64,000 nucleotides of DNA from Desulfurococcaceae archaeon AG1 (GCA_003116855.1 BEWT01000002.1:1-64000); one strand, 5' to 3'; positions 24,828 through 36,319 are shown, numbered from the stretch's first letter. A program made the numbers and translations. The notes: generated by a model from the sequence alone, not told the origin.

Positions 24828-24930
24828 GGGGCCGTAGTCTAGCTTGGGAGGATGCCAGCCTGGGGTGAGCACCCCGTAGCAAGGGATCCCAGAGCGCTGG
24901 TGGTCCCGGGTTCAAATCCCGGCGGCCCCA
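24828..24930 (+). tRNA. tRNA-Pro(GGG) with a 29-nt intron
   Basis: Acceptor stem GGGGCCG pairs with CGGCCCC, followed by discriminator A at 24930; CCA is not encoded. The T arm is CCGGG/TTCAAAT/CCCGG, and the anticodon stem is CCAGC/GCTGG. The intron is 24866-24894, between positions 37 and 38. The bulge-helix-bulge fits: exon CTGG (32-35) pairs with intron CCAG, with three-base bulges GGT and AGC at the two cut sites. After splicing the loop is CUGGGGC: anticodon GGG, and G37 as usual for proline tRNA. It is on the plus strand between two minus-strand genes, ending one base before the end of the next. Confidence 0.92.
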
Positions 24931-31832: not shown

Positions 31833-31861
31833 GTAATTTAGAATTCATCGAATATTTATAA

Positions 31862-32101
31862 GCTTTGATCAATGTTGTTTTGGCAATGATATGGTCTCCA
31901 TATCGACCCTAGATGGCGATGGGAGCAACGCTCCAAGCCATCCAGGGTTTAACCTAGATGGGAGCCCCGTACCGTTTGGCTTGACAGCCACCCACGACCC
32001 GCAGAGATCCCAAGATTCTTGCAGGTCGAGGTGGAAGTCCCTGGATTCCCTGGATAAGACCATGAATAAAATGAGTGGAATGAACATCCAGGGACAAACG
32101 G
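31862..32101 (+). ncRNA. Putative structured RNA, copy A
   Basis: Three hairpins are visible. H1 31907-31947 has stems CCCT/AGGG, GATGGC/GCCATC and GGAGC/GCTCC. H2 31988-32034 has CCACC/GGTGG and GACC/GGTC. H3 32038-32094 has TCCCTGGAT/ATCCAGGGA. It shares ordered short blocks with copy B at 35965-36185: GCTTTGATC, GTTTTG, GTCTC, CTTGAC, GACAGCC, GAGATC (in the H2 loop), AAGTCCCT and GGGACAAACGG. The stems differ in sequence but pair in both. A TTTATAA box (about 31854) lies just upstream. It may be a stand-alone RNA, a leader of the nucleoside phosphorylase gene, or a decayed mobile element; strand is inferred from copy B and gene direction. Confidence 0.5.
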
Positions 32102-32241
32102 AAGATTTTGGGATATGCTTCTCAATTAATTATACTACTAAATTGCTGTTTTTCTCTCTTCTGAGCATGCTCTTTGCCTTCGTACGGTTGTTTGGTGCTA
32201 AGTGGTTTTAAGAGTATATTCCAGGATGGTGCGAACTACAG

Positions 32242-32255
32242 CTATATAATTATAA
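32242..32255 (+). promoter_or_regulatory. Likely TATA box of the nucleoside phosphorylase gene
   Basis: The A/T run around 32242-32255 (TATATAATTATAA) sits about 30 bases before the ATG at 32281, the right distance for leaderless transcription starting at or near that ATG. It therefore argues against the in-frame TTG at 32257 as the start. Confidence 0.5.
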
Positions 32256-32256
32256 A

Positions 32257-33120
32257 TTGGTTTATCATCCCCCTAGCGTGATGTTTCTGGGAGGCGCGTT
32301 GCTTTCCGAGAAACCAACGGTCTCAGGCAAGCAATACCACTTAATGGTTGGCGAGGGGGATGTGGCACGCTATGTCCTCCTTCCAGGTGATCCTGAAAGG
32401 GTTCCTAGGATAGCGAAGACCTGGGATAAGTATTGGCATGTTGCAACTCATAGGGAGTATGTTACATATACTGGTGAGTATAGGGGTGTGAGGATCTCTG
32501 CAACGTCGACAGGTATAGGGGGTCCTTCGACTGCAATAGCTATAGAGGAGCTCTTAAGAGTCGGTGCTGACACTTTCATAAGAGTAGGGACTACAGGTTC
32601 TCTTAGAAGGGAGATAGGGATCGGTGATCTTGTGATCTCGGCTGCTGCTGTAAGGCTTGATGGTGCTAGTAAAGCCTATATCTTCCCAGAATATCCAGCC
32701 GTGGCTAGCTATGAGGTAATCCTAGCCCTCATAGAGGCTGCAGAATCCCTTGGCACTAGGTACCACGTGGGCATAACAGCGAGCACCGATAGCTTCTATG
32801 TTGGTCAGGGCAGGCCTGGTTATAAAGACTATATGCCTCCATGGTCAAAAGATCTTGTGAAGATGCTTAGGGACGCCAATGTTGTTAACTTCGAGATGGA
32901 GGCTGCCACCATATTCACGCTAAGCAATATATATGGTGCGAGGGCTGGGGCCGTGTGTGCTGTTATAGCTAATAGAGAGACGGGAGAGTTCATCCCAGAC
33001 GCTGGGGTCGATACAATGATAAGGGTTGCGAACGAAGCTGTGAGGATCCTGAGTGAGTGGGATTCTATGAAGCAGAGGTTTGGTAAGAACTACTTCTACC
33101 CAGGGATCTTGAGGAGGTAG
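32257..33120 (+). CDS. Nucleoside phosphorylase (PNP/UDP family, uridine-phosphorylase-like)
   Basis: A 287-residue (279 from ATG 32281) member of the PNP/UDP family, which splits nucleosides with phosphate into base and ribose 1-phosphate. The phosphate site (LLPGDPERV), the family signature FIRVGTTGSLR, and the ribose/base site NFEMEAATIFTLS are intact. The sequence is closest in style to uridine phosphorylase and broad-specificity archaeal enzymes; use of methylthioadenosine cannot be excluded. The amidohydrolase-like gene starts three bases after the stop. Confidence 0.9.
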   Translation: MVYHPPSVMFLGGALLSEKPTVSGKQYHLMVGEGDVARYVLLPGDPERVPRIAKTWDKYWHVATHREYVTYTGEYRGVRISATSTGIGGPSTAIAIEELLRVGADTFIRVGTTGSLRREIGIGDLVISAAAVRLDGASKAYIFPEYPAVASYEVILALIEAAESLGTRYHVGITASTDSFYVGQGRPGYKDYMPPWSKDLVKMLRDANVVNFEMEAATIFTLSNIYGARAGAVCAVIANRETGEFIPDAGVDTMIRVANEAVRILSEWDSMKQRFGKNYFYPGILRR

Positions 33121-33122
33121 AG

Positions 33123-34238
33123 ATGGGTGTAAAGATCCTTGTCGAGAACGCATCCATACTCACAATGTCAACCAAAGAAGATCTATTCATAGATAGGGGT
33201 TACATCTTCATAAACAACGGAGTCATAGAAAGCGTTGGGCGGGGAGAAACCCCCATAGATCTAGAACCCCCAGACCTAGTAATCAACGGTAAGGGGAAGC
33301 TTGTAATCCCCGGTATGATAGCCCTCTACTCAAGACTATCCCTCCTACCTCTAAGGGGTATTGCTAAGAGAGGGGTTGAAGAACCCTCTATCTATAGCAC
33401 ACTCACAAACAACGATCTATACCTCTTATCAGCACTATCCCTCGCCGGGCTTGCAATGAGAGGCATAACAACCATCCTCTCAACCGACAGGATTGTCGAG
33501 CCTGTTGTAAGGGCTTCGGAGAGTGTTGGTGTTAGGGTTATAGCCGCGCCATGCCTCGAAGATCCAGGGGATCTTGATAGCTGGGCTAGAGAGATCTCAT
33601 CCTCTGCTAAAAAGTGGCATAGACGTGGGGAATCGCTAGCCCTCATAACAGGATCTATATGCTCTAGACGTGCTGTTAGGGAGGGTTTAGAAAACCTTGT
33701 TCCAAGCGATATGCCTTTAGTGGTATATAGAGATGCATGCATGGATCTCAAGATCCCGAGGATCCTTGCCATAGACCCTCCACCAGAGTGTAATATACCG
33801 CGAGATTCATCGGTATACACAGAGCTTAGCATGGATAGATGGGAGCCAGGGGCTGGGTATGGTATAGGGGCTAACCCCTCCTGGTCCCTCTATCCTCACT
33901 TCATCATAGCCAGGGCTAGGGGTTATAGTCCTCTAGATATACTGGGAAGCGCAACAATATGGGCTGCTGCTAAAGTCTCAATGGAATCAGGTGTTATAGG
34001 GCCTGGAAGGCCTGGCGATATAGTGATCCTGGATCTAACCCAACCTCCATGGTGGGTCCCGGAGAAGATTCTCAATGAAAATCTAGCAGCCGATATAGCT
34101 ATATCAAGCATACCCAGGATCGAGGCTGTAATCGTGGGGGGAGAGATTATTGTTGATGATGGCGGGCTCCTCACAGTCGGAATGGATCTTTTCTCCAAGG
34201 CTTATAACAAGATCTCAGAGATCCTGGGGAGGATCTGA
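33123..34238 (+). CDS. Amidohydrolase-like protein lacking metal ligands (probable pseudoenzyme)
   Basis: A 371-residue protein with the frame of the ATZ/TRZ/cytosine-deaminase-like amidohydrolases: an N-terminal beta-sandwich (LVENASILTMSTKE), the strand leading to the barrel (GKLVIPGMIALYSRL), and the C-terminal ATIWAAAKVSMESGVIGPGRPGDIVILDL block. At the place of the HxH metal motif it has ALYS, and I see no H-x-x-E or SHD/E motif in the middle, so it should not bind the catalytic metal in the normal way. It is cotranslated with the nucleoside phosphorylase and overlaps the CDP-alcohol transferase by one base. A regulatory or scaffolding role is possible. Confidence 0.7.
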   Translation: MGVKILVENASILTMSTKEDLFIDRGYIFINNGVIESVGRGETPIDLEPPDLVINGKGKLVIPGMIALYSRLSLLPLRGIAKRGVEEPSIYSTLTNNDLYLLSALSLAGLAMRGITTILSTDRIVEPVVRASESVGVRVIAAPCLEDPGDLDSWAREISSSAKKWHRRGESLALITGSICSRRAVREGLENLVPSDMPLVVYRDACMDLKIPRILAIDPPPECNIPRDSSVYTELSMDRWEPGAGYGIGANPSWSLYPHFIIARARGYSPLDILGSATIWAAAKVSMESGVIGPGRPGDIVILDLTQPPWWVPEKILNENLAADIAISSIPRIEAVIVGGEIIVDDGGLLTVGMDLFSKAYNKISEILGRI

Positions 34239-34813
34239 TGCTCAACAGGATTAAGAACAGGATCTCATCTCTGATCAAGCCTGTAGCAGCATTTATAGCG
34301 AGTAAGAATATAGATCCTAATATCGTTACACTCACCGGCTTAGTATTAGCCCTCATAACACCTATCTCAGCCTTGCTATACGGAATCCCCGGAGCGATCG
34401 TTATGATCGTATTATCATCGATCCTCGATTTCCTCGATGGAGAGATAGCAAGGGTCTCTGGCAGGGTTAGTGCTAGGGGTGCTTTCCTCGACTCTCTATG
34501 CGATAGAGTCTCGGATCTATCATACCTCTCCACATTCATAATACTCGGGCTCAGCCCTGTAGCCGTATATATAGCTGCTGGTGCTAGCCTGTTGATAAGC
34601 TATGCTAGGGCTAGGGCTGAGTCCCTCGGGGTCAGGGTCTCTGGGGTTGGGCTTATGGAGAGGGGTGAGAGGATCTTAACCATAATACTGATCCTATTGC
34701 TCGGACTCTTCAGCCAGAGTGCCATGGAGATAGCGTTATTTGTATTCATAGCTCTATCAATATACACAGCTATAGAGAGAACCGTGTTTGTTGTTAGATC
34801 TCTTGGGAGATGA
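34238..34813 (+). CDS. CDP-alcohol phosphatidyltransferase family enzyme
   Basis: A 191-residue membrane enzyme of phospholipid synthesis. The complete signature D-x2-D-G-x2-A-R-x8-G-x3-D-x3-D is at about residues 66-93 (LDFLDGEIARVSG ... FLDSLCDRVSD), with about six membrane helices. In archaea such enzymes add myo-inositol phosphate, serine or glycerol phosphate to CDP-archaeol; archaetidylinositol-phosphate synthase is the best guess for a crenarchaeon. The ATG overlaps the preceding stop (TGATG), so it is translationally coupled to the amidohydrolase-like gene. Its 3' end overlaps that of PriL by 20 bases. Confidence 0.85.
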   Translation: MLNRIKNRISSLIKPVAAFIASKNIDPNIVTLTGLVLALITPISALLYGIPGAIVMIVLSSILDFLDGEIARVSGRVSARGAFLDSLCDRVSDLSYLSTFIILGLSPVAVYIAAGASLLISYARARAESLGVRVSGVGLMERGERILTIILILLLGLFSQSAMEIALFVFIALSIYTAIERTVFVVRSLGR

Positions 34814-35858
34814 TCTCTGTTATGTATTTTCTAAGCTCCTCATCCAGCTTCTCAATCCTAGCCGGCTTTATCCCTTTCTGCCTAGCCCCTCTTAAACAAG
34901 ATCTTATCCATGAATCGTAGACCTTCTCACACTTGCCATAATTCCTGCAACTATTATCTATAAACTCCCTCACCACCTTCATAGCATCCTCATCCTCTAG
35001 CTTGAGTATTGTTGCTAGATATGGTGTTAATACATATAATATGAACCTCTTCCTACCATCTGGAAGTCCTTTCGAGACCACCTTCTCTATCCACGAATAC
35101 CTCTCTCTACTATACTGCTCACCTCCACCTTTTGTCTCTACCACCGCTTCGCCCAGCTTCTCCCTCGCAATGTTCAATATATCCTCCAAATACTTCTTAA
35201 CAGCCTCTATAGGTGGTATTGGTTTCACCATACTCTCGATCCTATGTTTCACAATATCAACACAGAGCTTTACCAGGGTTTCTCTCTCTACATATACATA
35301 CCCACCGCTAACGGGTCTATTAACAAGCCTATACTCCTCATCTATAGCTACCTGTGCAGCTATTCTGAGATAATCTGCTAGGGGGATCTTGTATGCATAG
35401 CATTTGAGATTCAGCCCAAGGGTAGATCGATCAATACCGATCGCTAAACAAAGCTCTTTCTCAGAGGCTCTCTCAACACGATAGCCCAGCCCTTCCATTA
35501 CGTCGATGATCTCCTCTGGATCCGAGTTGATAAGAATCCTCCGAACCCTCTCAGCCTCAGCCTCAGCGAAAGCCCTATAGATCCTTCTATCACCAGTCAT
35601 GGAAACCAGGGCTAACGCTATATAGAAGCTAAGGATCCTCTCCCTATAATCATGAAAACCAGGGCTTCCCATAAATGCACGGGGATCTAGATCCTCAACA
35701 ACCCTCCTATACCCAGCCTCAGCATACGTGGAGAGGAAAAGATCCTCAAGACTCTTTGGAAGACCCTCCCTCTCCAAGAAATTCTCCAGCTTTTCTAGAA
35801 ACGGGTAATTACTCAGATCAGAGATAGCCACAACCATGCCCGAGAATCTATTGCTCAA
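34794..35858 (-). CDS. priL: DNA primase large subunit
   Basis: PriL, 354 residues, the Fe-S-containing regulatory subunit of the archaeal primase. The conserved C-terminal domain begins near residue 250 (YSWIEKVVSKGLPDGRKRFILYVLTPYL). Cysteines suited to a 4Fe-4S cluster are at the NSCRNYGKCEKVYDSWIRSCL segment plus an earlier cysteine in LKCYAYKIP or LCLAIG. It partners with PriS, which is not in this window. It diverges from the structured element at 35965-36185. Confidence 0.9.
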   Translation of the reverse strand: MSNRFSGMVVAISDLSNYPFLEKLENFLEREGLPKSLEDLFLSTYAEAGYRRVVEDLDPRAFMGSPGFHDYRERILSFYIALALVSMTGDRRIYRAFAEAEAERVRRILINSDPEEIIDVMEGLGYRVERASEKELCLAIGIDRSTLGLNLKCYAYKIPLADYLRIAAQVAIDEEYRLVNRPVSGGYVYVERETLVKLCVDIVKHRIESMVKPIPPIEAVKKYLEDILNIAREKLGEAVVETKGGGEQYSRERYSWIEKVVSKGLPDGRKRFILYVLTPYLATILKLEDEDAMKVVREFIDNSCRNYGKCEKVYDSWIRSCLRGARQKGIKPARIEKLDEELRKYITEIISQEI

Positions 35859-35964
35859 AAGGTATTTTTATAAAGCACACCTCAAACCTAAGCCGAGCCT
35901 CTATGTATTTTTATTCCCTAGGAGCTGTTAGCTCGTTTATAATCGATAGGAGGGATATCTACAG

Positions 35965-36185
35965 GCTTTGATCGATATAGTTTTGTTGATGAGCAGTCTC
36001 ACTCTTGATAGCATCGAGATTAACGTTCCAGGCCATAGATAATGATCTCCGATGGATAGGGATATCATTACGCTTGACGCTTGACCAGCGACAGCCGTAC
36101 ACCCCCACATGGGCGGAGATCTCTGTGGGTTATGCTAAAGTCCCTAGATATTTTATGGTGTTCTTTTATATCTAGGGACAAACGG
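35965..36185 (+). ncRNA. Putative structured RNA, copy B
   Basis: This is homologous to copy A at 31862-32101. Hairpins: H1 36040-36070 (TAATGAT/ATCATTA), H2 36104-36129 (CCCACA/TGTGGG, loop with GAGATC), and H3 36141-36178 (11-bp stem, TCCCTAGATAT/ATATCTAGGGA). H2 and H3 lie at the same places as in copy A but use other base pairs; in H3 the G-C pair after TCCCT of copy A is A-T here, followed by further paired changes. A GTTTATAAT box near 35934-35942 is about 27 bases before the element, matching a transcription start at GCTTTGATC. The tail GGGACAAACGG is identical in both copies. Pcm starts 135 bases further on. Confidence 0.55.
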
Positions 36186-36319
36186 TTTAGTTATTTGGGG
36201 GATATGATTATGCTCTCCTTACAGTTAGGTTTTGCTCCCAGCCATCGTATCTCTAGAGGTATTGATATTGATTCTCTTGATGTTAGCCATACCTGTTGTT
36301 CTAGTTATTTAGATCTAGG

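Follow-up and report, generated by a model that had tools for sequence, protein, structure and literature searches.

Introduction

Insertion sequences (IS) of the IS607 family, TnpB guide RNAs and the miniature inverted-repeat transposable elements (MITEs) of archaea are all already known. For IS607 TnpB, a guide RNA at the right end of the element (reRNA, also called omegaRNA), a crossover at GG and a GGG transposon-adjacent motif (TAM) have been established experimentally (PMC10711439). Here we describe two short elements on the plus strand of a 64,000-nt stretch of DNA (the window, whose coordinates are used throughout) from Desulfurococcaceae archaeon AG1 (GCA_003116855.1 BEWT01000002.1:1-64000), a member of the Thermoproteota with a genome of ~2.0 Mb. 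Judged from sequence, both copy 1 (31853-32101) and copy 2 (35921-36185) are very probably non-autonomous, MITE-like elements of the IS607 family, from which tnpB has been deleted and which carry a complete TnpB guide RNA. To our knowledge, and allowing that part of it may already have been described, what is new is a gene-less IS607 element with a putative promoter and a complete guide RNA, outnumbering the nuclease genes.

Results

The 2.0-Mb genome contains 24 occurrences of GGGACAAACGG, the right-end motif of the two elements, while the reversed control gave none; one of the 24 sites (L012) falls within an unrelated gene. Four of these sites coincide with the ends of tnpB genes; L028, the fifth tnpB element, terminates near-identically in ...ACGA. 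A covariance model (R1), trained on 16 stand-alone copies, matched 61 sites in the genome at E<=0.01, ~43 of them strong and 5 of these tnpB-linked. Both window copies belong to the training set, so that their scores (copy 1, 205 bits, E 9.6e-61; copy 2, 35956-36185, 112 bits, E 7.2e-32) are training-set values.

A complete, autonomous IS607 element (L032, at G000:C4) encodes a serine recombinase with MerR-type helix-turn-helix and Resolvase domains and a TnpB with a TNB zinc domain, and is bounded by GGGCTGTTTTCTTTTTGATGT on the left and ATCCAGGGACAAACGG on the right. The latter is also the terminus of the tnpB-only copies L029-L031. Compared with the consensus of the short copies, the left end of the autonomous element is identical at 20 of 21 positions and the right end is identical; the four tnpB-only elements (L028-L031) likewise begin as the short elements do, and their right ends correspond. 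Where the left end can be recognised, a short element measures 265-360 bp. Against tnpB elements, the stand-alone copies align over their first 30-70 bp and again over their last ~190 bp, and ~1.2 kb of tnpB is absent in between. The architecture is left end, TATA-like box, complete guide-RNA scaffold and right end. An origin from IS200/605 was considered and rejected, because no Y1 transposase was found in this genome and an element with a serine recombinase and the shared ends is present. Two additional TnpB-like genes (L026 and L027, at G000:C5 and C6) belong to other types and have 3' ends without this right end.

The preliminary description had reported two copies of an unrecognised family at 31862-32101 and 35965-36185. 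Both copies are real, but they are two of ~43 strong ones and the elements extend further left; that no known family was recognised agrees with the lack of an Rfam match, but the RNA is one that occupies the tnpB 3' end. Since it forms the IS607 right end, a matching insertion-sequence end, which the description had named as counting against its view, is what the autonomous and tnpB-only elements provide.

Copy 1 begins with a TATA-box-like TATTTATAAG (31853-31862), centred ~29 nt 5' of the first hairpin. This hairpin, SL1 (TGATATGG-TCT-CCATATCG; 31887-31905), is followed by the long hairpin SL2 (ACCCT...AGGGT with inner GGAGC/GCTCC; 31906-31948), where homology to the tnpB-linked copies restarts, and by SL3 (31958-31995), which consists of an ATGG/CCAT-type stem and a GAGCC/GGCTT hairpin with a possible GCCGTT/GACGGC-type pseudoknot that is weak in copy 1. 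SL4 (31996-32027) is a GACC...GGTC hairpin (arms 31996-31999/32024-32027) carrying GAGATC. SL5 (TCCCTGGAT/ATCCAGGGA, arms 32038-32046/32086-32094) together with CAAACGG (32038-32101) forms both the IS607 right end and the 3' end of the scaffold. A 106-aa open reading frame (ORF) across copy 1 (31891-32211, plus strand; DGSPVPFGLTATHDP...RWKSLD) is, by comparison of its translation with TnpB C-termini, a relic of the tnpB 3' end and not a gene.

Copy 2 is 265 bp long, and its left end, GGAGCTGTT...GATAGGAGG, starts at 35921 and matches GGGCTGTTTTCTTTTTGATATNCATAGG. Its counterparts of the SL4 and SL5 arms are CCCACA/TGTGGG (36104-36109/36124-36129) and an 11-bp TCCCTAGATAT/ATATCTAGGGA (36141-36151/36168-36178); the latter, which with the CAAACGG right end spans 36141-36185, is altered on both sides relative to copy 1 and fully paired. 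Minimum free energy z-scores are -5.1 for copy 1 and -3.2 for copy 2, and for either copy none of 200 shuffles was equally good. Copy 1, which retains 88% of the model pairs, looks well preserved and appears competent, and copy 2 appears old and partly decayed.

The predicted scaffold corresponds to the last ~190 bp of the element; in copies linked to tnpB, the final part of the gene falls within it, on the same strand. A plain MAFFT alignment of the 16 stand-alone copies has standard pairs in 88.2% of pair cells, a percentage biased toward the structure, for which a single copy served as the source. In the same alignment, 16 pairs are altered on both sides (8.7 in shuffled alignments), in 23 cells (11.2 shuffled), and none of 500 shuffles reached either count. 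When 65 copies from AG1 and its relatives are aligned with fitting to the structure, 91.2% of cells are paired and 462 are altered on both sides, compared with 160 after shuffling and 56-114 with slid partners. The helices of SL2 (helices 2-3) have 93-96% of cells paired and 12 of 15 pairs altered on both sides, and SL4 (helix 6) has 88% paired with 7 of 9 pairs so altered; the putative SL3 pseudoknot, examined in alignment A2, has 88% of cells paired and 2 pairs altered on both sides. The arms of SL1 are compensatory, GATATGG/CCATATC in copy 1 versus GTGTGGG/CCCACAC in most other copies, and no tnpB-linked copy was found to have SL1. Indels disrupt the tnpB frame in 20 of 23 stand-alone copies, with pairing retained, and substitution rates at codon positions 1, 2 and 3 are nearly flat (0.26/0.28/0.32), indicating that the constraint acts on the RNA and not on a protein. 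In one tnpB-only element (L054:1649-1692; G000:C13:25119-25162), an opposite-strand model match of 43 bits indicates an orientation of SL2 opposite to that in the other copies inspected, while tnpB stays open.

These results bear out most of the structural proposals made earlier for the two window copies. The shared blocks and stems are all where they had been placed and, given the reversed-motif control, lie far beyond chance; the compensatory changes ascribed to selection on an RNA recur as covariation in both alignments, so that covarying homologues, whose lack would have counted against the proposal, do exist in relatives; and the element is probably non-coding, as the disrupted frames attest. 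An Rfam match to a known element would also have spoken against it, and none was obtained at gathering or relaxed thresholds, RAGATH-18 included. For the first of the two stems proposed, now SL4, GACC/GGTC in copy 1 stands, but the outer CCACC/GGTGG is not part of the family consensus, in which the partner of the CCCA stretch is an ATGG lying upstream; the second is SL5. The other Rfam matches in the window are due to chance, apart from a 103-nt tRNA match at 24828-24930, which probably contains an intron and was not reported by ARAGORN in the setting used.

The box TATTTATAAG or a near variant is present in most stand-alone copies, and in most its centre lies 25-29 nt, typically ~26 nt, before SL1, which is the usual distance between an archaeal TATA box and the start site. 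We infer that this TATA-like box promotes transcription of the guide RNA. At the other end, homology between copies stops directly after CAAACGG and the flank beyond is variable; at the corresponding place, IS607 TnpB guide RNAs such as that of ISXfa1 continue into the flanking DNA (PMC10711439). From this TnpB biology, the flanks AAGATTTTGGGATATGCTTC of copy 1 (32102-32121) and 36186-36205 of copy 2 are candidate guides. Neither 20-nt flank has a second match in its own genome with <=3 mismatches, and the empty site itself is therefore the only target to be expected there. Copies 1 and 2 have GGGATATG in common in their 3' flanks (32102-32121 and 36186-36210), with similar surroundings, which may reflect chance or a common target preference.

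The RNA is present in 32 of 59 relatives and in 52 of the 300 genomes sampled across the phylum; in Metallosphaera yellowstonensis it lies at the 3' end of a tnpB (E 5e-30). No relative of TnpB and no right-end pattern was found in viral contigs. Owing to the overlap of the RNA with the 3' end of tnpB, a low-threshold tblastn search labelled nearly all copies tnpB-linked; this label was not used, and at least 100-150 aa were required instead. Stand-alone copies are commoner than tnpB-linked ones in all six genomes sampled, where the tnpB-linked fraction of the copies inspected is 5 of ~43 strong copies in this genome, 3/16 in G023, 1/9 in G032, 1/9 in G027, 4/11 in G038 and 1/9 in G001, the last four counts omitting separately fetched best matches (L063, L065 and L072, which are tnpB-linked). 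The leaders of stand-alone copies vary among genomes, each with a TATA-like box (G001, G023, G027, G032, G038), and these differing leaders suggest that stand-alone elements arose several times. In G001, a genome of the same genus, three copies in alternating orientation lie within ~3.2 kb (G001:C31:12077-15229; L206).

Copy 1 is absent next to the orthologous uridine phosphorylase gene in G001, G003 and G006, and copy 2 has no counterpart next to the PCMT gene in G002, G004, G006 and G007. Elsewhere in the AG1 genome, a stand-alone copy of 338 bp (L022, around 1173-1511; G000:C15, ~274.0 kb) disrupts a sphingosine-1-phosphate-lyase-like pyridoxal phosphate (PLP) gene within its V-G-S-A-P-N motif, and the tnpB-only element L030 (G000:C4, ~120.4-121.9 kb) splits an MFS transporter gene. 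Most copies have GG at both junctions. A search for joined flanks in the relatives, which are too diverged, found no clean empty site.

Discussion

The identification of the window copies as tnpB-deleted IS607 elements with a complete guide RNA has to accommodate several observations that speak against it. The sole TnpA found belongs to an element with a TnpB that shares just 42% identity with the TnpBs nearest these RNAs. The frames of the genes interrupted by L022 and L030 close with 4 (or 1) target bases, not with the 2 of a simple GG crossover; a GGGG between the flanks would fit both interrupted genes and match a GGG-type TAM. The 65-copy alignment was fitted to the structure, which inflates its covariation, although fitting alone hardly explains the contrast with the controls, and part of the covariation may predate the loss of tnpB. 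Of the window copies themselves, copy 2 retains just 70% of the model pairs, and the left end of copy 1, 5' of 31853, is eroded and not recognisable.

The main rival leaves this identity untouched and concerns function: the copies would be ordinary MITEs, in which the demand of the transposase for the right end is the sole reason why the RNA-like region is kept, and the guide RNA would be a functionless passenger. We regard this as plausible, if short of probable. Few parts of the element are as constant as SL5 and the right-end sequence, L002 and L015 lack SL2 yet retain both ends, and copy 2 is partly decayed, all as expected of such a passenger. However, the entire ~190-nt scaffold is retained and not the end alone, helices distant from the end (SL2 and SL4) covary, stand-alone copies have turned up repeatedly, and the deletions end near the 5' side of SL2 and, in leaders of several types, leave it preceded by a TATA box. 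IS607 recombination acts on duplex DNA, and hairpins are therefore not obviously required for movement, which also counts against the passenger explanation.

Two further explanations are far less likely. Full tnpB elements might have been randomly eroded in their coding part, with the RNA region left by chance, and relics of the TnpB C-terminal frame do persist in some copies, for example copy 1. Erosion would, however, vary the breakpoints and produce intermediate lengths, whereas many copies have one architecture with intact ends at 265-360 bp and none of the recognised copies lies between 360 and 1471 bp; the uniform architecture indicates that the copies multiplied as short elements, and random erosion is very improbable. 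Least credible of all, in our view, is that the copies are domesticated, host-conserved regulatory RNAs that no longer transpose and instead direct TnpB, or a nuclease-dead form of it, to cellular genes. Their intergenic locations adjoining gene starts and the preserved RNA fold and TATA box of copy 1 would suit such a role, but both copies are missing beside the orthologous genes of the relatives examined, the candidate guides match nowhere else in the genome, and the TnpBs carry RuvC D/E/D motifs as seen by eye.

TnpA probably moved the short copies in trans. If the stand-alone RNAs are functional guides, each copy would be transcribed from its own TATA box, so that its 3' flank becomes the guide. 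TnpB encoded elsewhere in the genome would bind the stand-alone RNA and cut sister alleles or incoming DNA without the element, and repair would copy the element back, by which a gene-less copy would be retained. Such a trans-guide function of the stand-alone copies, the mechanism that we favour, has, from the sequences at hand, roughly an even chance of being correct. A little more tentatively, we propose that across this archaeal order IS607 has repeatedly yielded tnpB-less elements consisting of a promoter and a complete guide RNA, that the dozens of dispersed guides per genome share few TnpBs in trans, and that a gene-less transposon is kept through RNA-guided removal of its empty sites. 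If true, a mobile element can carry as its selfish cargo a guide RNA alone, without the gene for its nuclease, and a single TnpB can serve many dispersed guides, and this trans-guide proposal is testable in culturable Sulfolobales. The RNA family that emerges here has no Rfam entry, and it accounts for small ORFs that would otherwise pass for genes.

Guides encoded apart from their nuclease have a parallel in Ktedonobacter, where Altae-Tran and co-workers reportedly described stand-alone IscB omegaRNA loci in 2021; that case differs in that the nuclease is IscB and not TnpB and the host is a bacterium. The Sulfolobus MITEs SMN1 and SM3A are likewise short, gene-less, multi-copy and mobilised in trans, but by ISC1733 and ISC1058, and the part of the source used here reports no guide RNA for them (PMC3718332). 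In the IS200/IS605 reRNA of ISDra2 (PMC8612924) and in SisTnpB of Sulfolobus islandicus (PMC11043419), the sequence of the guide RNA extends over the 3' end of tnpB and the right end of the element, and the flank serves as guide, and the TnpB found here has C-terminal homology to 8bf8; those systems, in contrast, use a Y1 transposase and TTGAT/TTTAA-type sites. The RAGATH-18-derived reRNAs of bacterial IS607 TnpBs, e.g., ISFba1, are right-end guide RNAs of similar length but sit outside the coding sequence (PMC11061315). ISXfa1 shares with the elements described here the IS607 affiliation, the serine recombinase, TnpB, a right-end scaffold leading into the flank, G-rich junctions and a putative pseudoknot (PMC10711439), whereas the present family is archaeal, its scaffold overlaps the 3' end of tnpB, and most of its copies have no tnpB and carry a TATA box of their own.

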